This document shows, piece after piece, positions 6,125-61,685 of a DNA stretch of 64,000 nt. The translations under genes and the position numbers were made by a program. The stretch's first letter is position 1. Every line of letters begins with the position of its first letter. Origin of the DNA: Paenibacillus sp. FSL R10-2782. GTDB taxonomy: Bacteria > Bacillota > Bacilli > Paenibacillales > Paenibacillaceae. The stretch is from NCBI RefSeq assembly GCF_038592985.1, contig NZ_CP151951.1, forward strand, positions 115,001 through 179,000. Direction: 5' to 3'. The notes beneath the pieces are model-generated. The model was not told the DNA's origin. It made no database searches and saw nothing but the letters and a program-made list of their open reading frames with translations.

Positions 6125-7516
6125 TTGAAAATTAACAGAAGCCAAAACAAATATAAAAAAAGTCAGGTATTTAAAAAAAGTGTAACTGCTATAATACTGT
6201 TAAATATGATGTACATGTCGGCATTGCCGGTTGTGGGCAATTTCGATTCGAGCGTGGCTACCTTTGCCGCTGGAGCGACAACACAGGCAACCAATATTAC
6301 GGGGACAGGTTCTATTAATCCCCCTAGTCTGGCACTACGTTCCGCCATTTTGATCGAGCCTTCCACTGGGCAGGTATTGCTGTCTATGAATCCAGATGAG
6401 CCGCTTCCACCAGCCAGTATGACTAAAATGATGACAGAATACATCGTGGCTGAACAGGTTAAGCAAGGTAAACTCAAGTGGACGGATAAGGTTACGGTTC
6501 AAGAGAATGCTGCCAAGAGCATCGGATCACGTATTTTTCTGGCTCAAGGTGATCAACATACGGTAGAAGAACTGTATATTGCCATGGCGGTAGGCTCTGC
6601 TAATGATGCAACAGTAGCTCTAGCCGAGCGTGTATCTGGAACCGAGCAGGACTTTGTAAAATTGATGAATGAAACAGCTCAGAAAATGGGCATGAAAAAT
6701 ACGTATTTTATCAACTCAACTGGTTTGGATCGTAAGGATATGCCTACAGGGTTTCAACCAGACACAGACCGGGAAACTGTGATGACAGCGAGAGACGCGG
6801 CTACTCTGGCTGGTTACATCATTAAGGACCATCCGGATTATACACGGTTTACCACAATTCAATCTTACAAATTCCGTCCGACCGACAAAGCGCCAATTAT
6901 TAACTATAATTGGATGCTAGAAGAAAATAAAAATATTACTAACTTTAGAAAGTTTGCTTATCCTGGCTTAGACGGAATGAAGACAGGCCATACCAATAAT
7001 GCAGGAAATTGTTTTACAGGAACAGCCGAACGCAACGGAATGCGTCTCATTAGTGTAGTTATGGGGGCTGACTCGGATGCGCACCGTTTTACAGAGACTG
7101 CTAAAGTATTAAACTATGGCTTTGATAATTTTGAAGTGAAGCAGGTAGTGGCTCCAAAGACAGTGGTTAAAGGTGTAGAGAATGTGCCTGTCACCAAGGG
7201 AACTGAAACAGGAGTACCTGTTGTGACTAAGGATGCGGTAAGCTTTGTCGTACCTAAAGGCGCAGCCAACCCTAAAGTGACGTTTTCAACGAACATTACA
7301 CCGGAAAGCTCACTTGTAGCGCCTTTGAAGCAAGGGGCAAAAGTCGGAACGATTAGCTATACGTATAAAACGGATGGTGTGGAAAAAGGTCAGGTGAAAA
7401 CCGTTGATCTGGTAACTACGACGGCTGTAGAAGAGGCTGGCTGGTTCCGTATGCTTTTCCGGGCAATTGGTAACTTCTTCGGTGATTTGTTCCAGGGCAT
7501 TAAAAACCTGTTCTAA
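6125..7516 (+). CDS. dacA: D-alanyl-D-alanine carboxypeptidase (PBP5 type)
   Basis: Removes the terminal D-Ala of peptidoglycan stem peptides outside the membrane. 463 residues: N-terminal export signal (about 15-48), class S11 serine peptidase domain with SMTK (Ser98, Lys101), SAN (158-160) and KTG (286-288), a C-terminal beta domain, and a final amphipathic segment rich in Phe and Trp (about 440-463) typical for peripheral membrane anchoring. Start: TTG at 6125, about 10 nt after GAGAGGGG. Its place between guaB and pdxS matches B. subtilis. No terminator with a T-run separates it from pdxS. Confidence 0.95.
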   Translation: MKINRSQNKYKKSQVFKKSVTAIILLNMMYMSALPVVGNFDSSVATFAAGATTQATNITGTGSINPPSLALRSAILIEPSTGQVLLSMNPDEPLPPASMTKMMTEYIVAEQVKQGKLKWTDKVTVQENAAKSIGSRIFLAQGDQHTVEELYIAMAVGSANDATVALAERVSGTEQDFVKLMNETAQKMGMKNTYFINSTGLDRKDMPTGFQPDTDRETVMTARDAATLAGYIIKDHPDYTRFTTIQSYKFRPTDKAPIINYNWMLEENKNITNFRKFAYPGLDGMKTGHTNNAGNCFTGTAERNGMRLISVVMGADSDAHRFTETAKVLNYGFDNFEVKQVVAPKTVVKGVENVPVTKGTETGVPVVTKDAVSFVVPKGAANPKVTFSTNITPESSLVAPLKQGAKVGTISYTYKTDGVEKGQVKTVDLVTTTAVEEAGWFRMLFRAIGNFFGDLFQGIKNLF

Positions 7517-7587
7517 TCGTCTGATTACTAGACCGACAGAGCCGAGGATTCATTGCTCTGCCTTACGTATTTTGCTGATTGAAATGA

Positions 7588-7616
7588 TTGTGTATTTGGC
7601 GTCTGTACGGTAAAAT
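7588..7616 (+). promoter_or_regulatory. Possible SigA promoter of pdxST
   Basis: TTGTGT (7588-7593), 17-nt spacer, TAAAAT (7611-7616). The predicted start near 7623 is about 37 nt before pdxS. The -35 is only moderate. Confidence 0.45.
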
Positions 7617-7659
7617 ATTAAGTTAGAATCTAAACGTAACCCTTACAGGAGGAAACGAG

Positions 7660-8541
7660 ATGGAAACGGGAACTTCACGTGTAAAAAGAGGTATGGCAGA
7701 GATGCAAAAAGGCGGCGTAATCATGGATGTCATGAACGCTGAACAGGCTAAAATTGCAGAGGCGGCAGGAGCTACAGCAGTAATGGCTCTTGAACGGGTG
7801 CCTTCAGATATCCGTGCGGCTGGCGGGGTTGCCCGTATGGCTGACCCAACGATTGTGGAAGAGGTCATGAAGGTGGTCTCTATTCCCGTTATGGCTAAGG
7901 CTCGTATCGGCCATTTTGTGGAGGCGAAGGTGCTGGAATCTCTGGGTGTTGACTATCTTGACGAGAGCGAAGTGCTGACGCCTGCGGATGAAGTTTTCCA
8001 TATCGACAAGCGGGAGTTTACCGTTCCATTCGTTTGCGGAGCCAAGGATCTGGGAGAAGCACTGCGCCGTATCGGCGAAGGGGCCTCTATGATTCGTACA
8101 AAGGGTGAGCCTGGAACCGGGAATATTGTCGAAGCTGTTCGTCATATGCGTTTTATTAACGGCCAAATTCGCAAGGTGCAAAACCTGTCGAAGGACGAGC
8201 TGTATGCAGAAGCGAAAAACCTTGGCGTTGCTTACGAATTGCTGCTGGAAGTGCATGAGCACGGCAAGCTGCCAGTGGTTAACTTTGCAGCGGGCGGCGT
8301 AGCAACACCTGCCGATGCGGCATTGATGATGCATTTGGGCGCTGATGGTGTATTCGTTGGTTCCGGTATTTTCAAATCCGATAGCCCTGAGAAATTTGCA
8401 CGTGCCATCGTGGAAGCGACTACTCATTATACGGACTACAAGCTGATTGCAGAAGTGTCCAAGAATCTGGGTGCTCCAATGAAGGGTATCGAAATTTCCA
8501 AGCTGGCACCGCATGAACGCATGCAGGATCGTGGTTGGTAA
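7660..8541 (+). CDS. pdxS: Pyridoxal 5'-phosphate synthase, synthase subunit
   Basis: Condenses ribose 5-phosphate, glyceraldehyde 3-phosphate and PdxT-supplied ammonia to PLP. 293 residues, full length for the family. The start [10 protein letters not shown] follows a short N-terminal helix. The substrate-binding Lys lies in VMAKARIGH (Lys80), and a phosphate-binding GEPGTGN and the C-terminal [14 protein letters not shown] are visible. AGGAGG precedes ATG 7660. pdxT follows after 16 nt, so the two subunits of the dodecamer-based complex are co-expressed. Confidence 0.98.
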
Positions 8542-51149: not shown

Positions 51150-52825
51150 CAAGCAATCCACTGGAACTCATTAATCAAAAGGTGACCTCAGCTATCGAGG
51201 CGGCGGTACTGGCTGCTGGAATCGTGAGCCGCGAAGAGCTGCCGACGATCACGCTGGAGGTGCCGAAGGACAAGTCGCACGGTGATTTGGCTACGAACGC
51301 GGCGATGCAGCTCACCCGCATTGCGAAGAAAAACCCGCGTCAAATTGCAGAAGATTTGATCGCAAATATGGACTTGGCTGCCGCTTCAATTGAAAGCGCG
51401 GAAATTGCCGGACCGGGCTTTATTAACTTCCGTCTGAACAAGGGCTACCTTTATGCTGTCATTAAACAAGTGCAGGAGCAGGGAGCGGATTACGGACGTA
51501 TACAGGAAGGTGCAGGCAAAAAGGTACAAATCGAGTTCGTCAGTGCGAATCCGACAGGTAGCCTGCACTTGGGCCATGCACGTGGTGCGGCAGTGGGGGA
51601 TGCCCTCTGCAACGTGCTTGATTTTGCCGGATACAAGGTAACTCGTGAATACTACATTAATGATGCGGGCAACCAGATTTACAACATGAGCCGCTCGATT
51701 GAGGCCCGTTATTTGCAAGAGCTGGGACAGCCTGCGGAGATGCCGGAGGACGGGTATCACGGTGAGGACATCATCGGATTTGCCAAGGAACTGGTGGCCG
51801 AGAAGGGCGATTCCCTGTTGTCTTTGACACCAGGCGACCGCGCAGCTTATTTCCGTGACTACGGTCTGGAAAAGGAACTGAACAAGATCAAGCGCGATCT
51901 GGAGCTGTTCCGTGTACCTTTTGACTCCTGGTTCAGCGAAACATCGCTGTATGAGAACGGTGAAGTACTTAAAGCGCTGAATGAGCTGCGTGACCGTGAG
52001 GAGATTTATGAGAAGGACGGAGCCACATGGCTGAACACAACCAAGTACGGCGACGATAAAGACCGTGTCTTGATCAAAAATGACGGTACATACACGTACC
52101 TGACCCCGGATATCGCTTACCATCGCGACAAATATGCCCGTGGGTATGACACAATCATCAACATTTGGGGAGCGGATCACCACGGCTACATTCCACGGAT
52201 GAAAGCAGCTATGGAAGCACTGGGCAACGACCCGGATAAGCTCAAAGTGCTGATTGCCCAAATGGTCAGCCTGTTCCAAAATGGGGAAAAGGTAAAAATG
52301 TCCAAGCGTACCGGTAAGGCCGTGACGATGGAAGACCTGATGGAAGAAGTGGGCGTGGACGCGATCCGTTACTTCTTCACGATGCGCAGCATGGATTCGC
52401 ATCTGGATTTTGACATGGATTTGGCGATTTCCACTTCTAATGAAAATCCGGTATTCTACGTGCAGTATGCCCACGCGCGGGCGTGCAGCGTATACCGTCA
52501 AGCTGAGGAGCAGGGCATTGCGGTACTGCCGTTGGCAGAGGTTGATCTGTCCAAGCTGACGGCTGAGCATGAATACGACCTGTTGCGCAAAATCGGCGAG
52601 CTTCCGGAGGAAATATCGGTAGCGGCTGCGAGCTTTGCGCCACACCGTATGATTCGTTACGTCTACGAGCTGGCATCGCTGTTCCACAGCTACTATAAAG
52701 CAGAACGTGTGATCACTGAGGATGCCGCTCAAACGCAGGCCCGCTTGGCACTGTTTGGCGCGGTGCGCACCACCATTGCCAATGTGCTGAAGCTGGTAGG
52801 CGTGTCTGCACCGGAACGCATGTAA
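51146..52825 (+). CDS. argS: Arginyl-tRNA synthetase
   Basis: 559 residues, class I. N-terminal Add1 domain (about 8-90), HIGH variant SLHLGHARG, anticodon-binding DALR domain at the C terminus. The KMSKS loop is present as [10 protein letters not shown], and [10 protein letters not shown] and [15 protein letters not shown] are conserved. Translation is coupled to ywiB. An intrinsic terminator follows. Confidence 0.97.
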
Positions 52826-52844
52826 GCAAGCCACTTTAATGATA

Positions 52845-52898
52845 AAAGGAACCGTCTGTACCATCCCCAGCAGGGTGGCACGTGCGGTTCCTTTTTTG
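52845..52898. terminator. Bidirectional terminator after argS
   Basis: AAAGGAACCG / CGGTTCCTTT around an inner hairpin CCACC..GGTGG-like centre, then TTTT; converging with the CYTH-like gene. Confidence 0.85.
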
Positions 52899-52908
52899 TA
52901 CGAGCAGC

Positions 52909-53769
52909 TTAGTAGCGTTCCAGTACCAAATTCGTTTTCAGGGAATCGGCGGGAACCAGCCACCCTTTGGATTGCAGCAGATTGATCAGCTTGGTGCGAT
53001 TGCTGGAGGCAACGCTGTAGTCCGAGGTTTTGAAGGAGATTTCAATGATGGTATCTGTACCTGATCCGTTCGCACTGCGGATAGGCCAGACTTCAACATC
53101 GGTATCCAATCCCTGGAAGCTGCCTCCATATTTGCTGACCTGTACAGGACCGCGTACTCTGGAGTCTGCCAAGGCTTGTTTGCCCCAGTTGCTGGTTTTC
53201 CAGTTTTGCAGCTTGCCTGGAAGATTGTCCAATAGTTGCTTTAACGCCTGATCCGGGGAAGGAAGAGTTAATCCTTTGGAAGCGTTCGTTTTTTTGTCAT
53301 TGGAAAAGCTCAGTGTCTGTTTGCTATAGCCCCAATCCACCTCAGCATCGTAGTTATCGTCGGATGCGCTGAAGCCTTCTTTATTGGCTTGGGTGAGAGC
53401 CGCGTTGATATCTCCGTTCGTGACTGTGTACCGTTTCTTGTAGGTTAATTCATAATTCTTTTTATCTTCTTTTTTGCGAAATCTGACATTCCAGCCCTCG
53501 TTGTTCAATTGCAATTGATCCGTGTCAAAATATTCGACGCTCAATCGTTGCGCAGCTTCGCTAATTTGAAACTCGTTGGCTACGCTGCTTTTCAAAGAGC
53601 CGTCCGCATTGAGGACCTTAGCTGTATCCAGCATCAGTTTTACCTCATAGCTTGGTGTGGCATTAGCGGCAGCCTGCGCAGGCTCGGCCCCTTTCCATCC
53701 CGTTACAAGCAGCACTGCACTCAGGGTTAATACTGACAAAGCCTTTGTGATACGAAGACCGGTTTTCAT
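52909..53769 (-). CDS. Secreted CYTH-like (triphosphate tunnel) domain protein
   Basis: 286 residues. Signal peptide with AQA-A type cleavage near residue 33. The mature N terminus reads YEVKLMLD, then VEYFDTDQLQLNNEGWNVRFRKKEDKKNYELTYKKR. This is the CYTH order: ExK, then a DT-x-x-L strand and the RxR..LTxK strands. Later strands (DTIIEISFKTSD) supply acidic residues. CYTH enzymes hydrolyse inorganic or organic triphosphates and are normally cytosolic; an exported one is unusual. ATG 53769 start. Assignment rests on motif order only. Confidence 0.7.
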   Translation of the reverse strand: MKTGLRITKALSVLTLSAVLLVTGWKGAEPAQAAANATPSYEVKLMLDTAKVLNADGSLKSSVANEFQISEAAQRLSVEYFDTDQLQLNNEGWNVRFRKKEDKKNYELTYKKRYTVTNGDINAALTQANKEGFSASDDNYDAEVDWGYSKQTLSFSNDKKTNASKGLTLPSPDQALKQLLDNLPGKLQNWKTSNWGKQALADSRVRGPVQVSKYGGSFQGLDTDVEVWPIRSANGSGTDTIIEISFKTSDYSVASSNRTKLINLLQSKGWLVPADSLKTNLVLERY

Positions 53770-53896
53770 CCAATCATCTCCTGTTCGTCCGAATGGGGGT
53801 ACACGCTACACTTTACGGGTGTAATGTCAGTCGTATGTCAAGGCAAGCTGGTACTCTGGTTAAAAAATAACATAATTTCTATATGACAGGTAAGAT

Positions 53897-54826
53897 TTAT
53901 TCTTGGTTCCCTGACAAATATTCAGCAAATTGGCGGATTAGAGCGGAGCGGTGGCGGTCCTTATTGCTAACCATATAAATGTACCGCTCTACACGTTGGC
54001 CCGGAATAGGCCGTATGACGAGCATCCCGCGTTCAACCTCAGACTGCACAGCTATGCGGGAGACGAAAGAGACGTGTTCTCCCAGCATGACCGCCTGCTT
54101 GATCGCCTCCAGCGAATCCAGCTCCAAATAGGAGGGGAGGCGGCGTCCGCCATGCTCCAGCCATTTGTCTGTCATTTGGCGTGTGCTGGAATCCTTGCCG
54201 TGCAGCACGAAAGAGGAAGAAGCGATTCGCTCAGGTGTTAAATCGGTTTCGCTTGCGAGCGGGTGATCCGGTGCGCAGATCAGTACCAGCTCATCCTCGC
54301 CCAAGGATTCCGATACCAGTGAGGGCACTTGAAACGGCTCTGTTGAAATAACGCCAAGGTCGATTTCGTGACGGGCAAGCATGTCCTTGATCACCGGAGC
54401 AGTTTTCACGGACAAGGCAATATGAATTCCCGGATGTTCCCGGGCAAAACGGTGCAGCACCGCAGGAAGCACATAGGTAGCTGGTACATAGCTTGCGCCG
54501 ATTCGAATGCTCCCCCGCTGGAGTGTGTCGAACTCGCAGACAACCCGCTCCGCCTCGGCGGCGAGCGCATTAATCTTGCCGGCATAGTGGAGCAGCGCGT
54601 ACCCAGCATCCGTCAGGATGATTTTGCCCATACGCGTGTCGAACAGCTTCACCCCCAAATCCCGCTCCAGGTTTCTCATATGAAAGGTGATGGTCGGTTG
54701 TTTCAGACCGAGAAGCTCAGCTACTGTGGTAATTTTATGATGCTTGTTCAGCAACTCTACAATATGCAGCTTCAGAAGACTTAAATTCACTTGGATGCCC
54801 CGCTTTCTGTTTGATCGGAAACTCAT
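53897..54826 (-). CDS. LysR-family transcriptional regulator of the importer/beta-CASP locus
   Basis: 309 residues. HTH LHIVELLNKHHKITTVAELLGLKQPTITFHMRNLERDLG (about 18-57), effector domain 100-300. Divergent from the ABC importer ATPase gene with a perfect palindrome between, so it probably controls that operon. Start ATG 54826 is 4 nt from GGAG; GTG 54790 fits a shorter LysR N terminus. Confidence 0.92.
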   Translation of the reverse strand: MSFRSNRKRGIQVNLSLLKLHIVELLNKHHKITTVAELLGLKQPTITFHMRNLERDLGVKLFDTRMGKIILTDAGYALLHYAGKINALAAEAERVVCEFDTLQRGSIRIGASYVPATYVLPAVLHRFAREHPGIHIALSVKTAPVIKDMLARHEIDLGVISTEPFQVPSLVSESLGEDELVLICAPDHPLASETDLTPERIASSSFVLHGKDSSTRQMTDKWLEHGGRRLPSYLELDSLEAIKQAVMLGEHVSFVSRIAVQSEVERGMLVIRPIPGQRVERYIYMVSNKDRHRSALIRQFAEYLSGNQE

Positions 54827-54861
54827 TCCGCTCCATGCGTGGCGGTATCAATCCCCTCTAT

Positions 54862-54876
54862 ATAGATTAAATCTAT
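54862..54876. promoter_or_regulatory. LysR-box-like operator
   Basis: ATAGATT-A-AATCTAT: perfect 7-bp arms, containing TAGATTAAATCTA as T-N11-A. It lies between the divergent LysR and ATPase genes. Confidence 0.7.
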
Positions 54877-54989
54877 GAGTGTTAACACAATTCATTGAAA
54901 TAATTAATTTTGCTTTAACTTTCCAATAACACAGGCTGCGAATTCAAGCTTTACACTGGGGTCAGTCATAAGAACAGGCAGGTAATGCG

Positions 54990-55994
54990 ATGAATCAGGA
55001 TCTATATATTCACGGTTTGAGTAAAACCTTCGGTCATATGACCGCATTGCACGAGACGAATCTGGTCGTACGACGGGGACAATTCACGACACTCCTCGGT
55101 CCGTCCGGCTGCGGGAAAACAACGCTTCTACGCATGATTGCAGGGCTGGAAATGCCGGATACCGGCACGATCACGTTGGGGGAGGAAGTTCTTTTTTCGG
55201 CAGAACGCAAAAAGGATATTCCCGCTCATCTCCGTCATTTCGGCATGGTGTTTCAGGATTTCGCGCTGTGGCCGCATATGACGGTGTTTGAAAATGTGGC
55301 CTTCGGGCTGCGTGCGGTCAAGCAGGCCAAAGGCGTCGGCTCTGGCAGCGTGCGTGGCAAGGAACTGCGAGCGGCGGTGCTGGAGGCGCTGGACAAGGTC
55401 AGACTGTCGGGGATGGAGGATCGATATCCTCATCAGCTATCTGGTGGCCAGCAGCAGCGAGTCGCTTTTGCCCGCGCGGTCGCCATCCGACCCAGGCTCG
55501 TCTTATTCGATGAGCCGCTCAGTGCACTGGATGCGGTGCTTCGCGAGGAGATGCGCATCGAAATGCTGTCGCTGGTGCGGGATCTGGGGCTGACCGCTCT
55601 GTACGTCACCCATGATCAGATTGAGGCTATGTCGATGTCCGATGAAGTGGTCGTCATGAGAAGCGGACATATTTTGCAGACCGGAACACCCGAAATCATC
55701 TACAGTCGTCCATCTCATCCAGAGGTGGCGAGGTTCATCGGCAAGTCGAACTGGCTGGAGCCGGAGCGGACGCTATTCCGTCCCGAGCATGTTCGCTGGG
55801 AACAGAATCAAGTGGATCAGCATTCTTTTACAGTAGAGATTCGGCATGTCAGCTATGTTGGAGATCGTTATGAAATCCGCATATTGGCGGAGAACGGCGA
55901 GCTGTGGACTGCGTATCATTCCACCCGCTTGCCTATCGGAGAACAAAAGCAAATTTGGGTATCACCGCAACACATCCACCAACTCGATTCATAG
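54990..55994 (+). CDS. ABC importer ATPase (Fe3+/aminoethylphosphonate type)
   Basis: 334 residues. Walker A GPSGCGKTT, Q-loop VFQDFALWPHMTV, signature LSGGQQQR, Walker B LVLFDEP, switch VTHDQIEAM, and a C-terminal regulatory OB-like part. The FALWPHMTVFENVAFGL segment is typical of the ferric-ion/thiamine/2-aminoethylphosphonate subfamily (CUT2-like FbpC). First gene of a four-gene operon; binding-protein gene follows after 20 nt. Confidence 0.92.
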   Translation: MNQDLYIHGLSKTFGHMTALHETNLVVRRGQFTTLLGPSGCGKTTLLRMIAGLEMPDTGTITLGEEVLFSAERKKDIPAHLRHFGMVFQDFALWPHMTVFENVAFGLRAVKQAKGVGSGSVRGKELRAAVLEALDKVRLSGMEDRYPHQLSGGQQQRVAFARAVAIRPRLVLFDEPLSALDAVLREEMRIEMLSLVRDLGLTALYVTHDQIEAMSMSDEVVVMRSGHILQTGTPEIIYSRPSHPEVARFIGKSNWLEPERTLFRPEHVRWEQNQVDQHSFTVEIRHVSYVGDRYEIRILAENGELWTAYHSTRLPIGEQKQIWVSPQHIHQLDS

Positions 55995-56014
55995 GGAAAA
56001 GGGGTATATACAAG

Positions 56015-57085
56015 ATGATAAACAAGCACGTTTTTCGTTCAGGTTGGAAAAAGGGCGCGATGCTCGCATTAACATTGACCTTTGGACTGGCTGTCGCAGG
56101 CTGTGGAACGGCTACACCATCCAAGGATGGTGCGCAATCCACCGGATCAGCAGGACAAGCCGGGGCGGCATCGACCGATCAGAAGCTGGTTGTCTACAGC
56201 GCAGGCCCTGACGGACTGGCAAAAAAGCTGGTAGCTGGGTATGAGGCGCAAAGCGGAGTGAAGGTCGAGCTGTTCCAGGGAACGACAGGTAAAATTTTGG
56301 CCCGCATGGAAGCCGAGAAGGCGAATCCGGTAGCAGATGTGGTGGTGCTGGCATCTCTTCCGTCCGTACAAGGCTTGAAAAAAGACGGCCTCACGCTGCC
56401 CTACCCGGATGCCCAAAACGCGGACAAGCTGAATCCCGATTGGTCCGACAAGGAAGGCAACTATTTCAGCACCAGTGCTTCCGCGTTAGGTATCGCGTAC
56501 AACACGAAGCTGGTGAAGACACCGCCGACTTCATGGGCCGATCTCGCGAAGCCGGAATACAAGGACCAAGTTAACATTCCTGATCCGTCCCTGTCCGGCT
56601 CGGCGCTGGATTTTATGACTGGCTACCTGAGTGCCAAAGGCGATGGGGGCTGGACGTTGTTCGAGCAGTACAAGGCTAACGGCGTAGCGATGGCTGGAGC
56701 CAATCAGGAAGCGCTGGACCCGGTCATTACCGGAGCCAAAAGCATGGTCGCTGCTGCGGTTGATTACATGACCTACAAGGCCAAAGCCAAAGGCGAGCCG
56801 ATCGACATTGTTTATCCGAAGGAAGGAACAGTCATCAGCCCACGCCCTGCAGCGATTCTCAAATCGACACAGCATGAGCAGAACGCCAAGGCATTCATTG
56901 ACTATCTGCTGTCGGACGAGGCACAGAAGCTGGTAGCGGACGCTTCCTTGCTTCCGGGACGCACGGATGTCAAAGCAGATAAGCGCGCCAATCTGGATGA
57001 GATTCCGTTGCTGAAGACCAATTGGGAATGGATGGGCGAGCACGGGCCTGACGTGACAGAGAAGTTCACGCAAATGTTCAAGTAA
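56015..57085 (+). CDS. ABC importer substrate-binding lipoprotein (iron/AEP type)
   Basis: 356 residues. Lipobox VAGC (about Cys24), then KLVVYSAGPDGLAKKLVAGYEAQSGVKVE, DVVVLAS and GSALDFMTGYLSAKGDGGW, the pattern of the FbpA/PhnS binding proteins. The conserved Tyr pair that holds ferric ion in FbpA (YY-motif) is not evident, so an anion or organophosphonate is at least as likely a ligand as iron. ATG 56015 follows AAAAGGGG; a longer in-frame start (55904) overlaps the ATPase gene. Confidence 0.88.
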   Translation: MINKHVFRSGWKKGAMLALTLTFGLAVAGCGTATPSKDGAQSTGSAGQAGAASTDQKLVVYSAGPDGLAKKLVAGYEAQSGVKVELFQGTTGKILARMEAEKANPVADVVVLASLPSVQGLKKDGLTLPYPDAQNADKLNPDWSDKEGNYFSTSASALGIAYNTKLVKTPPTSWADLAKPEYKDQVNIPDPSLSGSALDFMTGYLSAKGDGGWTLFEQYKANGVAMAGANQEALDPVITGAKSMVAAAVDYMTYKAKAKGEPIDIVYPKEGTVISPRPAAILKSTQHEQNAKAFIDYLLSDEAQKLVADASLLPGRTDVKADKRANLDEIPLLKTNWEWMGEHGPDVTEKFTQMFK

Positions 57086-57089
57086 GCGG

Positions 57090-58760
57090 ATGGGGTTCTT
57101 ATCCGTCAAACAGATCAGAGCGTGGAGTCTGACACTCGCTCTGATCGCGCTTGCTTTACTGATCGTGCTGCCGTTGCTACAAATCTTCATCCAAAGTGTG
57201 TATGTAGATGGACAATTACAATGGTCTGCGCCTTTCCAGACGTTGGCTGCATCCCGATTTATGGGTGTGCTGTTCGGCTCGATCTGGCTGGGCATTTGTG
57301 TTATTGCCGGAACGACGGTGCTTGCACTTCCGCTCGCGTGGGTCATGTCCAACACGCGTCTCGCTAGCTGGCGCTGGCTGGACGTGGTGCTATTGATTCC
57401 GTTTATGACCCCACCCTATATCGGGTCCATGGGCTGGATTTTGTTTATGCAAAAAAACGGGTATCTGGAGCAGTTGTTTCCGAGCCTGCATTTCTTGACC
57501 CCGTTCTTTTTCAGCTTTGGCGGCATGGTGATGATCATGAGTCTGCATCTGTTTCCGTTCCTGTACCTGCTGCTGCGCGGTGCGCTGGTTAGGATTGGCG
57601 GCAGTCTCGAAGAGGCCGGAGCCGTTATGGGCGGCGGCTTTCTGTACAGGTTCCGCCGGATCATTTTACCGCTGCTGCTGTCGGCTTACGGAATGGGCGC
57701 GCTGCTCATTTTCGTCAAAACGATTGCCGAGTTTGGAACCCCCGCCACTTTTGGGCGACGTATCGGGTATGAGGTCATGACATCGGAAATTCACAAATAC
57801 ATTTCCAGTTGGCCGATTGATTTCGGCAAGGCGACATCCATGGCCTCAGTGCTTTTAACTGCCTGTCTGCTCGTGTGGTATGTGCAATCGGTGATCAACC
57901 GTAAGTACACATACAGGCTGGTAGGTGGTAAAGGTTCTCGTCCTTCCCGTCTTCGTGTATCCGGCTGGACTACGGGACTGAGCATCGCATTCATTCTATT
58001 GTTGCTAATGGCGTCCATTGGTATCCCTTATTTTTCAATTATCGCCGCTTCCACCATGAAGCTGCGGGGGATCGGCTTGGCTTGGGATAACTTTACGCTC
58101 GATTATTACAAGGAACTGCTGTCTTGGGGCTCAGAGAGCATGGAGGCGTTGCTGAACAGCATATTTCTCTCTTTGGGGGCATCGACGATTGCCGTTATGC
58201 TGGGCACATGGTTTGCGCTCGTCATTGGCGGCTCGCGTACGAGGCTCCAGCGGACGGTGGATGCATTCAGCTTGCTTCCGAACACGGTTCCGGGGATTGT
58301 TATGGTAGTCGGCCTTATTTTATGGTGGAACTCGCCATGGATGCCGATTCCGTTGTATAACACGTACGGTATGGTCATTCTGACGTATGTTGTCTTGTTT
58401 GTTCCTTATACAGTCCAGTATGTCAAAAGCGCCTTTACGCAGGTAGATACTGCTCTTTTTCAGGCAGGACAGGTGTTTGGCGGTCGACCGACTTATGTAT
58501 TCCGGCGGATTGTGCTGCCGCTGATTTTACCGGGCATGCTGGCAGGCTGGATGATGACCTTTACCATTGCTTCGCGCGAACTGGTCGGCTCGTTGCTGAT
58601 TTTGCCGCCATCCATCCAGACGTCTGCAACCTACATTTTTGCCCAGTTCGAACAGGGGCAGGTGTCGCTTGGTATGGCAATGGCGGTCATATCGGTCGGT
58701 TTGACCACGCTACTGCTGATCTTAATGGAAAGCTTAAACTCGCAAAGAAAGTGGAAATGA
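57090..58760 (+). CDS. ABC importer fused permease (FbpB type)
   Basis: 556 residues, two fused permease halves with about 12 TM segments. EAA loops: EEAGAVMGGGFLYRFRRIILPLL in the first half, QAGQVFGGRPTYVFRRIVLPLIL in the second. Such fused permeases are characteristic of Fe3+ and 2-aminoethylphosphonate importers. ATG 57090 comes 4 nt after the binding-protein stop, with a weak site; its own stop overlaps the beta-CASP gene by 4 nt (ATGA). Confidence 0.92.
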   Translation: MGFLSVKQIRAWSLTLALIALALLIVLPLLQIFIQSVYVDGQLQWSAPFQTLAASRFMGVLFGSIWLGICVIAGTTVLALPLAWVMSNTRLASWRWLDVVLLIPFMTPPYIGSMGWILFMQKNGYLEQLFPSLHFLTPFFFSFGGMVMIMSLHLFPFLYLLLRGALVRIGGSLEEAGAVMGGGFLYRFRRIILPLLLSAYGMGALLIFVKTIAEFGTPATFGRRIGYEVMTSEIHKYISSWPIDFGKATSMASVLLTACLLVWYVQSVINRKYTYRLVGGKGSRPSRLRVSGWTTGLSIAFILLLLMASIGIPYFSIIAASTMKLRGIGLAWDNFTLDYYKELLSWGSESMEALLNSIFLSLGASTIAVMLGTWFALVIGGSRTRLQRTVDAFSLLPNTVPGIVMVVGLILWWNSPWMPIPLYNTYGMVILTYVVLFVPYTVQYVKSAFTQVDTALFQAGQVFGGRPTYVFRRIVLPLILPGMLAGWMMTFTIASRELVGSLLILPPSIQTSATYIFAQFEQGQVSLGMAMAVISVGLTTLLLILMESLNSQRKWK

Positions 58761-60097
58761 TGATGACGAAGCTTCGAATTTGGGGCGGAGCGGGCGAACA
58801 CGGCCGCTCCTGCTATGTTTTGGAAGGAAAGCAGCATCGCATCATGCTGGATTGTGGTGTGAAAAAGGAAGGAACCGGGCAGTATCCGGTTTTTCCGCCG
58901 CAGGAGGCGGAGAGGCTGACTGCTGTATTGCTGTCTCATGCACATGAAGATCATTCGATGGCGCTCCCCTTACTGTACAAAAATGGATACCGGGGAGAGG
59001 TGTGGACGACAAAGGCCACTGCGGAACAGCTAGGTTCCTATTTTCGCTCCTGGCATACTTATGTAGAATCGAGAGGCGGAAAATTGCCTTACGACGAACA
59101 GGATATCGAATCCATCACTTACCGTTATCTGGAGGATGAAGCGCCGTCAGGGGTGTGGCAAGAGGCTAGTCCGGGTGTACGGATCATGTGGGGACGCAGT
59201 GGGCATTTGGCTGGCGCTGTGTGGTACGTAGCAGAAATGGAAGGGAAGCGGTTATTCTTTTCGGGAGACTACAGCCGCGAGTCCGAGCTGCTTGTTGCCG
59301 ATGTACCAGAACCCAATCTAGCCGATATCTCCATTATGGACAATGCCTATGACATGGATATAGACCCGCAGCCGGTGAAGCTGGAGCGGCTGCGGGTCGA
59401 GATGGAACGGATTTTGTCTGCTGGTGGTCATGTGCTGCTTCCGGTACCTGCCTTTGGTCGGGGACAGGATTTGATCGTGTGGGCCAGCGAACAATTCCCT
59501 GAACAAGTCATGATTATAGAGCCGGACATATGGCAGGGATTACAGCGTCTGAGCTGTTTGAAAGAATGGCTACGCCCGGAAGCACCTGTACGGATAGAAC
59601 ATGTGCTGCACAGTGACAGGATCTTTGTGCCTCGTGATGCTGCGGAGCGAGTACGGCTGCTGGAACAGAGTGCTGCGGCTATCATCGTAACCGGGGATGG
59701 GATGATGGATTCGCCACGGGCACGCTGGTACTATCAATATTTGTCGGATCAACCGTCGAGTGTGGGGGAGGGCAAAGGTAGCGGAAAAAGTAATCATAAC
59801 GGTGTTATTTTGACGGGACATGCTTCAAGCGGTTCTTTTGGTAAACATCTGCTGGAACGTGGGGATCAGGATGACTGTTGTATCGTTCGGCATTTGATTT
59901 ACAAGGTGCATCAGGGGATATCGGATGTGAGACAAATGTTGAAGGTGTTGCCTGGTAAACAGGTTGTGCTCGTTCATGCGCCCAAGCCGCAGACCGATCT
60001 TGTGCGGGGCGAGCTGATAAGAGAAGGCTGGACCGAGCACGAAAGCTCTGTAAAAGCCATTCACTCTTTGGAACCAGGCGCAACGTTAAACGTTTAG
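58757..60097 (+). CDS. Beta-CASP metallo-beta-lactamase-fold hydrolase
   Basis: 446 residues. MBL core: LDCG, HAHEDH (61-66), GHLAGAVW, FFSGDYSRES. Beta-CASP part: IMDNAYDM (motif A, Asp where CPSF/RNase J relatives have Glu), LLPVPAFGRGQDLI, TGDGMMDS, LTGHASSGS, KVHQGISDV (motif B His) and VLVHAP (end). All known beta-CASP relatives of this kind act on nucleic acids, but this one is translationally coupled to a nutrient importer. Start ATG 58757 (ATGA overlap); 58760 and 58763 are possible. No RNase J C-terminal domain. Confidence 0.88.
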   Translation: MMMTKLRIWGGAGEHGRSCYVLEGKQHRIMLDCGVKKEGTGQYPVFPPQEAERLTAVLLSHAHEDHSMALPLLYKNGYRGEVWTTKATAEQLGSYFRSWHTYVESRGGKLPYDEQDIESITYRYLEDEAPSGVWQEASPGVRIMWGRSGHLAGAVWYVAEMEGKRLFFSGDYSRESELLVADVPEPNLADISIMDNAYDMDIDPQPVKLERLRVEMERILSAGGHVLLPVPAFGRGQDLIVWASEQFPEQVMIIEPDIWQGLQRLSCLKEWLRPEAPVRIEHVLHSDRIFVPRDAAERVRLLEQSAAAIIVTGDGMMDSPRARWYYQYLSDQPSSVGEGKGSGKSNHNGVILTGHASSGSFGKHLLERGDQDDCCIVRHLIYKVHQGISDVRQMLKVLPGKQVVLVHAPKPQTDLVRGELIREGWTEHESSVKAIHSLEPGATLNV

Positions 60098-60119
60098 ATG
60101 ATTCATTTTGCTCCATCCG

Positions 60120-61280
60120 TTATTTCGTACCCTCCTGCATCAGTCGGAAGGCATCGACTTCCCCAAGTTTCGTGGATATAGTGTTGCGCCCTGTGCTTTT
60201 ACGAAGGCGCAGCGGTGTAGCGGTACGCTTGAGCAGTGCTTTGATTTCTCCAGGCCCCATCTCCGGTCTCAGTGAAAGGAGCAGGGCAATGCTTCCGGTT
60301 ACGTGAGAAGTAGCCATAGACGTACCGCTCATTTCGTGATGCTTGCCGTGTATCCATGAGGAAATAATCTTTTCACCCGGCGCGTACACGTCTACGAATT
60401 GTCCCCGGTTGCTGAAAGGTGCGATGCGTCTGTATTTATCGGTAGCTCCGACCGAAATGGTCTGGGAATAGCGGGCGGGGTAGTCAATACTCCGGCGCTT
60501 GCCCTCGTTTCCCGAGGAAGCTACGATCACAATACCGTTTTGATACGCTTTGTTCACCATATCAAGCAGCGCCTTGCTGCGTGATTTCATACCGAAGCTC
60601 ATATTGATAATATCGATACGATTCAATACACACCAGTCGATGCCAAGAATAATATCCGAAACGTAGGCGGCCCCGTTATGGTCAAACGCTTTTACAGGAT
60701 GAATCAGCGCCTGAGGTGCTACGCCAATCCTACCCTCATCATAGTTGGACGCCGCGATGGTACCGGCAATATGAGTGCCGTGACCGTTATCGTCATAGGG
60801 TAGCATGGTCCGATTAAGCAAATTGATGCCTCTGGCGAGAGAATGACGCAGATCAGGATGTTGAAAATCCGCTCCTGTGTCAATCACACCAATCCTGATT
60901 CGGTTTCCTGTAGAGGAAGGCCAAGCCTTGTGTGCGCGTACCTGTTTGACCCCCCACGGCATGGGCAGGTTTTTCTCCGTCTTCGGCATATGGGCCGCTC
61001 CTCCATGTACCCTCATGCGAGTATCTTCTTCAACGGTAACACCGTTGTGATATTTGCCGAGCCTGTTTCCCCCTGGAAGCGGGGCAATCAGGGCGCGAAT
61101 CAGCCGGGCCGGTTGTACTTGCCGTAATCCCGCAAGCTCGGGTTTCAGCTTCCTGAGATAGGACAGGCATTCCCGGTATTGGTGAGGCTTATCGAACGTA
61201 ATGATCTGTTTGTGTCGTCCACTGCGGGACGGCTCCGAAATCCCCTCGTGCAAACGCTGCAAAAAACCCGGATAGTCCAT
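60120..61280 (-). CDS. Subtilisin-like serine peptidase (S8) without signal peptide
   Basis: 386 residues. Catalytic Asp134 (VIDTG), His167 (NGHGTH), Ser321 (GTSMATS) and the oxyanion Asn258 (SSGNEG). The N-terminal 110 residues are unlike a signal peptide or a typical I9 propeptide, though IITFDKPHQYRECLSYLRKL may be an inhibitor-like remnant. An intracellular role is likely, as for ISP proteases. Start ATG 61280 after GGAGGGGG; a 56-codon longer frame to 61445 has no good site. Divergent from rpoE. Confidence 0.88.
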   Translation of the reverse strand: MDYPGFLQRLHEGISEPSRSGRHKQIITFDKPHQYRECLSYLRKLKPELAGLRQVQPARLIRALIAPLPGGNRLGKYHNGVTVEEDTRMRVHGGAAHMPKTEKNLPMPWGVKQVRAHKAWPSSTGNRIRIGVIDTGADFQHPDLRHSLARGINLLNRTMLPYDDNGHGTHIAGTIAASNYDEGRIGVAPQALIHPVKAFDHNGAAYVSDIILGIDWCVLNRIDIINMSFGMKSRSKALLDMVNKAYQNGIVIVASSGNEGKRRSIDYPARYSQTISVGATDKYRRIAPFSNRGQFVDVYAPGEKIISSWIHGKHHEMSGTSMATSHVTGSIALLLSLRPEMGPGEIKALLKRTATPLRLRKSTGRNTISTKLGEVDAFRLMQEGTK

Positions 61281-61685
61281 TTGAGACAGTCCCCCTCCGA
61301 TGAGCCATGCTGAGGTATTGTATGAGCAAGCGTCAGCGGCGGCATGGGAAACCTGCCCCTTTTTTATGGAAATAGGCCTGCTTGTCGTGTCAAAGTGATC
61401 GCGGACACATACGATACATGGAGGGCATAAGCTCTTGTGCAACAACTTTGGGAACTTCTCCCGGAGCGGGTACAGTCGAAAGACGGGGGGGACTCCGTCT
61501 TTTTAACGTGCGCCGCCTTGTTCAAGGCATACTACTGCAAATTGTACGGATACCCATGTTTAACTTGCAATTTGCTTCCAAATAGGTTTTACTTAGTTTT
61601 GATAATGGATATGTTAGTATTGCATGTATCGTGTATGCTCTGAAACATGTTCTTGTGAATTACGTGTGAGAGGAAGTGTCCCTAG
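61281..61685. other. 405-nt gap between the subtilase and rpoE
   Basis: Holds a plus-strand intrinsic terminator at 61480-61505 (AAAGACGG / CCGTCTTT, then TTT) with no gene before it on that strand. The stretch 61400-61500 is GC-rich relative to its flanks. The rpoE promoter was not identified with confidence; the AT-rich stretch 61570-61625 is the likely site. Confidence 0.5.
61480..61505 (+). terminator. Orphan plus-strand terminator upstream of rpoE
   Basis: AAAGACGG / CCGTCTTTTT with a G-rich 8-nt loop. No plus-strand gene ends before it. It may end an RNA or transcripts reading antisense through the subtilase gene, or act as an attenuator in a long rpoE leader. Confidence 0.65.

Follow-up and report, generated by a model that had tools for sequence, protein, structure and literature searches.

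Why should a protein with a nuclease fold be encoded as the last gene of an importer operon? The locus that raises this question lies in Paenibacillus sp. FSL R10-2782, within a 64,000-nucleotide stretch of contig NZ_CP151951.1 (RefSeq assembly GCF_038592985.1, positions 115,001 to 179,000 of the forward strand) which we refer to as the window and from whose first letter all window coordinates are counted. It consists of an ATP-binding cassette (ABC) importer, a divergent LysR-type regulator, a beta-CASP metallo-beta-lactamase (MBL) protein and, on the far side of the regulator, a protein with a predicted triphosphate tunnel metalloenzyme (TTM) fold. The explanation we favour, and to which we give somewhat better than an even chance, is that the cassette at 52909–60097 serves, under LysR control, the uptake and breakdown of an organic compound that bears phosphate, with the beta-CASP protein a predicted cytosolic phosphoesterase.

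The closely packed ATPase, substrate-binding protein (SBP), fused permease and beta-CASP genes and the divergent LysR gene were all found where an initial annotation, made from the letters of the window, had placed them, and the stop/start overlap of four nucleotides that it had described for the last gene is present as ATGA. The features of the cassette are as follows:

52909–53769, minus strand: CYTH/TTM-fold protein of 286 residues, predicted to be secreted and linked to the cassette (fold predicted)
53897–54826, minus strand: LysR-type regulator (PF03466 and PF00126 above cut-off)
54790–54788, minus strand: in-frame GTG, an alternative LysR start (start codons read)
54862–54876, no strand: LysR box ATAGATTAAATCTAT (T-N11-A), a palindrome conserved across loci
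54990–55994, plus strand: ABC importer ATPase with a TOBE domain (PF00005, PF08402)
56015–57085, plus strand: substrate-binding lipoprotein of the SBP_bac_6 type, with ATG at 56015 (PF13343)
57090–58760, plus strand: fused (two-unit) ABC permease (PF00528, BPD_transp_1, in two stretches)
58757–58760, plus strand: ATGA overlap of 4 nucleotides between the permease stop (TGA, 58758–58760) and the beta-CASP start (ATG, 58757–58759)
58757–60097, plus strand: beta-CASP MBL protein of 446 residues, predicted cytosolic phosphoesterase (CPSF73 relatives, structure model)

The beta-CASP gene could also start from an in-frame GTG at 58751. The junction between the permease and beta-CASP genes has a spacing of -4 in 48 and of -1 in 18 of the 86 measurable loci, with the remaining 20 ranging from -16 to +47 (two further loci had no start motif that could be located). 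The beta-CASP protein of the window has a copy of 100% identity in P. terrae PIC167 (L032), and just one further match, a weak one, in its own genome.

Linkage of the beta-CASP gene to the importer

The initial annotation had proposed that the adjacency of this protein and this importer be counted across genomes, and the linkage proved to be near-invariant. We fetched 80 named loci (80 of the 180 confirmed) with flanks of up to 8 kb, from Paenibacillus, Cohnella, Saccharibacillus, Brevibacillus, Longirhabdus and Tepidibacillus, and in 78 of these the LysR gene (minus strand) and the ATPase, SBP, permease and beta-CASP genes had the order and strands seen in the window. The two exceptions are L081, in which an internal deletion (7480–8060) joins the start of the ATPase gene to the end of the permease gene and the SBP and most of the importer are gone, and L086, a 10.9-kb contig on which a LysR gene was not detected. 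Clustering of the neighbouring genes of the 80 loci (45 clusters inspected, with many of the high-count ones being antisense frames of the same genes) produced, apart from the six, no gene that was judged real by position and reading and that recurred in more than 12 loci. Three cassettes have two beta-CASP enzymes, the second being a paralogue on the far side of the LysR gene (L088, 1437–2795; L161, 4728–6086; L162, 4692–6119).

Searches at E up to 1e-10 returned 463 beta-CASP homologues, and our alignment of the family (A1) was made with 34 of the 120 listed (alignment A2 consists of 15 CYTH sequences, and A3 and A4 of 36 and 19 sequences). A beta-CASP match was present in 68 of 75 genomes of the window's genus (G005 and G008 had fragments only) and in 42 of 148 genomes drawn from the family, one of which (G158) was weak and lay in a 927-residue frame, and at the level of the order 124 of 296 genomes had the permease. 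Of 299 genomes drawn from the class, 29 matched the beta-CASP profile and 31 the permease; three weak hits (G207, G284 and G436, with E about 1e-34 and frames of 909–924 residues) were set aside as a different long protein, and in the 26 genomes that remained the permease gene was always directly upstream by coordinates. In a phylum draw, which scored the best three candidates of each genome, six of 398 genomes had the permease, all from the window's family, and no cassette was found outside the Bacilli in this draw at the threshold used.

Other enzymes in the beta-CASP position

The other five permease-bearing genomes of the class draw carry a divergent MBL (three genomes) or a calcineurin-like phosphoesterase (two) in the position of the beta-CASP gene, and the gene next to the permease therefore encodes a metallohydrolase in all 31. 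In the last two (G399 and G470) the enzyme belongs to PF00149 and is unrelated to beta-CASP, and the nearest named relative of the G399 enzyme is from Staphylococcus simulans (97% identical). In the Staphylococcus-type family of G399 the permease was present in 12 of 101 genomes with the calcineurin-like gene next to it in 10/10 loci read, and in the family of G379 it was present in 14 of 121 genomes and was followed by a short MBL gene and then a CYTH gene in 10/10 loci read (these are 10 of the 12 and 10 of the 14 positive genomes, and include G399 and G379 which were already in the class draw). In one locus of the latter family, L182, the MBL gene is broken into two frames.

A relative of the calcineurin-like enzyme was also found in 12 of 109 Paenibacillales genomes with an ABC ATPase gene directly upstream each time, and ten such loci fetched at length (L200–L209) contain a paralogous cassette made up of a LysR gene and, in this order, the genes for an SBP, a fused permease, an ATPase and the phosphoesterase (L203 starts at a contig end and no LysR gene was called, and no SBP gene was called in L206 because the overlap filter kept an antisense frame). 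In L202 the cassette is followed by a CYTH gene that passes the Pfam cut-off, and in L205 by a homologue of the CYTH-like gene of the window. Of these calcineurin-like phosphoesterases, the two that we scanned score best with ApaH models, below cut-off.

The beta-CASP gene has been exchanged for an unrelated ApaH-like phosphoesterase in the same slot of the Staphylococcus-type genomes. That related importers can be followed, at one and the same place, by either of two unrelated metallophosphoesterases is our main argument for a role as a small-molecule phosphoesterase. The initial annotation had offered two roles for the beta-CASP enzyme, hydrolysis of the imported compound or the processing of RNA in response to it; the first is strengthened by the near-invariant linkage and by the calcineurin-like replacement, and the second is weakened.

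MBL folds include lactonase-type enzymes such as UlaG, and the MBL protein might instead be a lactonase or another non-phosphoester hydrolase acting on an imported phosphorylated sugar acid. Genes resembling EIIA, EIIB and EIIC of the phosphotransferase system lie directly after the LysR gene on the same strand in L152 (11099–13157; named by reading), as might be expected of such a role, but this neighbour was noticed in one locus only and the slot-sharing enzymes belong to a phosphoesterase family (PF00149), and we give a lactonase little credence.

The beta-CASP enzyme

The protein matches Lactamase_B in Pfam and aligns over almost its full length with CPSF73, and its structure model (predicted local distance difference test score 92.4) has CPSF3 as the top Foldseek match (6m8q; E 8e-33, template modelling scores 0.81/0.80). 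The closest solved relatives, CPSF73, archaeal KH-CPSF and TTHA0252, are RNases, some homologues carry the source name Cft2-family RNA-processing exonuclease, and the metal ligands and the His residues of motifs B and C are each kept in 88 or 89 of 89 loci (the single gap is a split gene, L049). All of this would suit a true ribonuclease which processes or degrades RNA, for instance the mRNA of its own operon, upon the appearance of the importer substrate. However, the 446-residue protein has no KH domain ahead of the MBL domain, unlike 2ycb; the beta-CASP span between motifs A and B, which is 190 residues in the window, falls to 126–145 residues in four distant Bacilli members; the Ser which CPSF73-type RNases have two residues before the motif B His (S-x-H, and S-A-H in CPSF73 itself) is absent, with Lys (K-x-H) in 90/90 proteins including that of the window; and in the Staphylococcus-type genomes the same slot is filled by the unrelated calcineurin-like phosphoesterase. 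With these differences, we regard a ribonuclease as unlikely.

In SNM1B the Ser at this spacing (S274, two before H276) contacts the phosphate of the bound nucleotide according to the available text of PMC8450094, and the invariant Lys therefore suggests an altered phosphate site. As far as alignments can tell, it is a stronger change than the Asp at motif A, which the initial annotation had taken as a possible mark of a changed substrate. The Asp is indeed present, but as it occurs in 86 of 89 family members (with Glu in three) it is a family trait and not a change of the window strain, and we rejected it as a marker of a new substrate since SNM1B/Apollo, a nuclease, has Asp there too (D145, in the same part of PMC8450094), which leaves it a weak clue. 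The motif B Lys and the shrunken beta-CASP span are consistent with a small substrate and, taken with the slot replacement, make a small-molecule phosphoesterase a better fit than RNA processing.

The binding protein and its ligand

In profile searches the best solved relatives of the SBP were P5PA 6wce, 8x1a, and AfuA 4r72, and Cys30, which lies behind a hydrophobic stretch, is invariant (19/19). P5PA holds the phosphate of its ligand with Thr37 and Ser147-Gly148-Thr149, as given in the available text of PMC8427247; the first of these aligns with T91 of the SBP (89/91) and the other three with S194 (91/91), G195 (91/91) and S196 (90/91, with Thr in one). On this alignment the SBP retains most of the Thr/Ser/Gly phosphate pocket of the sugar-phosphate and pyridoxal phosphate (PLP) binders. 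The ring-binding Tyr103 and His203 of P5PA align with Ser154 and Asp250 (Asp250 in 91/91), the place of the ring-binding His205 of AfuA being ambiguous in the AfuA alignment, and Arg277 is an added invariant residue (91/91). As the phosphate residues are kept, the ring residues changed and Arg277 added, the ligand should be phosphate-bearing, yet different from glucose 6-phosphate (G6P) and PLP.

A transporter of the Fe3+/2-aminoethylphosphonate (2-AEP) type had been recognised initially, with a phosphonate ester or a metal complex among the suggested substrates. The superfamily stands, and among NCBIfam models the putative 2-AEP set (PhnT2, PhnS2 and PhnU2) gives the best scores for the ATPase, the SBP and the permease alike. 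None of the three reaches the curated cut-off, with 136.4 of 392.75 bits for the ATPase, 311.1 of 457.7 for the SBP and 141.6 of 593.25 for the permease (TIGR03261/03262/03265). Import of 2-AEP or of another phosphonate, followed by cleavage of a phosphonate ester, would also agree with the linkage of 2-AEP importers to LysR genes in other bacteria (in the accessible part of PMC8316502) and with the presence of PhnW, over cut-off, in the window genome. Against it, besides scores far below the cut-offs, PhnW was over cut-off in nine of 40 cassette genomes picked by hand, in the window genome it is ~1.2 Mb from the cassette, and the recurrent neighbour clusters, which were named by reading, included no phosphonatase gene. 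We rejected 2-AEP as our main explanation on the model scores and the PhnW count, and consider import of any phosphonate quite unlikely.

A ferric-iron importer with a hydrolase acting on an iron chelate would be in keeping with the many solved SBP relatives that are ferric-binding proteins. In proteins of the FbpA type a pair of Tyr residues are iron ligands. The pair of 1y4t aligns with Asp250-Tyr251, which is kept in 91/91, in what is one low-identity alignment. Among solved structures the SBP matches the PLP and sugar-phosphate binders best, and iron was rejected as the main explanation. AfuA is itself a predicted iron binder which was found to bind sugar phosphates (PMC4546632, in the part available), and an iron importer seems to us barely credible. 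Neither 2-AEP nor iron is supported as the substrate.

Regulation

The regulator has the HTH_1 and LysR_substrate domains and the conserved box in a divergent promoter that are features of LysR-type membership. The perfect T-N11-A palindrome described in the initial annotation lies at 54862–54876 and exceeds what chance would give. Of 89 LysR–ATPase intergenic regions, 70 agree with the consensus ATAGATNNNATCTAT at 11 or 12 of its 12 positions, where dinucleotide shuffles gave an expectation of 0.05 per set for at least 11/12 matches, and it should be noted that these regions come from related loci and are not 89 independent trials. Thirteen of the 89 score 8 or 9 only, which is no better than shuffles. 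In its own genome the LysR box has two perfect sites, and a search with one mismatch (palindromic pattern) found 22 places compared to ten for a reversed control; this own-genome search gave no hint of a regulon, and with only two perfect sites the regulator looks local. The other perfect site (L164 ~1500; G000:C1:2707050) has a GNAT gene on one side and a different LysR gene on the other, both named by reading.

The predicted secreted TTM-fold protein

The CYTH/TTM-fold gene is part of the cassette and was missed by the initial annotation. Homologues lie beside 57 of the 80 named loci, and within the operon in some distant Bacilli. The TTM fold is seen in the predicted structure of the 52909–53769 protein; the window protein had no match to Pfam CYTH at 0.001, four of five relatives scanned at E up to 1 scored 15.3–16.3 bits (cut-off 23.2), and a profile search of the family against PDB sequences found none up to E 10, so the CYTH/TTM assignment rests on the predicted fold. 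E42 and K44 of the ExExK motif are kept in 63 of 65 homologues (the other two are gaps), and the ExE of strand 8 is putatively E243-x-S245 (65/65), with the strand assigned by reading and not by superposition. Seven loci have two CYTH-like genes in tandem beside the cassette (L062, L070, L071, L083, L093, L096 and L101).

Flanking features

A subtilase-family protease gene (PF00082) with a TTG start is found downstream of the cassette in convergent orientation (60120–61445, minus strand), and a homologue is near the cassette in eight of the 80 named loci. No RNA families were found at 52000–61000 with Rfam at gathering thresholds.

Proposed function

In the uptake-and-breakdown system that we favour, the secreted TTM-fold protein would act outside the cell, where it would bind the tri- or polyphosphate moiety of the compound or trim it, and the lipoprotein SBP would use its Thr/Ser/Gly phosphate pocket to capture the phosphorylated product. 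The fused permease and the ATPase would then import this product, and the beta-CASP enzyme, translationally coupled to the permease, would hydrolyse the phosphoester bond of the imported compound. The LysR regulator would sense the compound or a product and control the divergent promoter through the ATAGAT-N3-ATCTAT box.

Several observations weigh against this explanation. The beta-CASP gene of L081 is still open although the importer has been lost, while that of L049 is broken into two frames, and in L103, a Paenibacillus locus, the span between motifs A and B is longer (309 residues). Beta-CASP enzymes with the motif C His are taken as RNA-specific in the available portion of PMC3095777, and the window protein retains this residue. 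The fourth phosphate contact of P5PA, S183, aligns with Ala229 of the SBP, and co-localisation and displacement may also be compatible with a regulatory role. The CYTH gene is missing from the fetched flanks of 23 of the 80 loci, and at least 59 of 65 homologues have S, D, A, T or G in place of the first Glu of ExExK; with this Glu lost the TTM-fold protein may bind rather than cut. The name of a catalytic CYTH enzyme was rejected for it.

A related explanation is that the cassette serves whole nucleotides or nucleoside polyphosphates. The secreted TTM-fold protein would then capture or trim extracellular nucleoside polyphosphates, the lipoprotein and permease would import the nucleotide while it is still phosphorylated, and inside the cell it would be opened by an ApaH-like enzyme or by a beta-CASP nuclease that has adapted to single nucleotides. 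The basis of this explanation is that nucleoside-polyphosphate or nucleic-acid chemistry is common to all three enzyme folds. Under it a nuclease fold would have turned into an enzyme of nutrition, and we regard it as a tentative possibility.

The cassette is real and conserved, and is probably a variant of organophosphate import and hydrolysis for which we have found no description in the literature, with most subscription papers lying outside our search; secreted TTM-fold proteins as a kind likewise did not turn up in the searches made. Should the uptake-and-breakdown explanation be correct, many proteins of Paenibacillus and its relatives that now go by MBL-fold hydrolase or Cft2-family RNA-processing exonuclease would serve nutrition as phosphoesterases, and an import pathway would have recruited a nuclease fold. 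The swap of unrelated metallophosphoesterases in one slot, together with a TTM-fold partner, would provide a compact, testable signature of unrecognised organic-phosphorus uptake in the Bacilli, and the cassette would offer an assayable role for a secreted TTM-fold protein.

Comparison with known systems

The closest likeness of the importer is to the AfuABC hexose/heptose-phosphate and P5PA pyridoxal-phosphate importers of Actinobacillus, with which it shares the SBP fold family and most of the phosphate-holding Thr/Ser/Gly residues, while the window cassette adds a fused permease, a LysR regulator, a predicted phosphoesterase and a TTM-fold partner. Aminophosphonate importers of the AepXVW and PhnSTUV types are alike in ABC superfamily and LysR linkage, but the window genes score far below cut-off and a metallohydrolase is found where a phosphonatase partner would be. 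The secreted protein differs from triphosphate tunnel metalloenzymes such as AtTTM3 in its predicted secretion, the ExExK motif without the first Glu, a putative ExE that reads ExS, and scores below the Pfam cut-off. As for the enzyme, the CPSF73, TTHA0252 and aCPSF1 RNases have the same MBL and beta-CASP fold, metal ligands and motif B and C His residues, whereas the window protein has K-x-H, a motif A that is mostly Asp in its family, no KH domain and a gene bound to an importer operon. Calcineurin phosphoesterases of the ApaH/PrpE type are of another Pfam superfamily (PF00149), with the slot enzymes below the ApaH cut-off, and yet it is these which stand in for beta-CASP in the cassettes of Staphylococcus type and come after the paralogous importer in the Paenibacillales.

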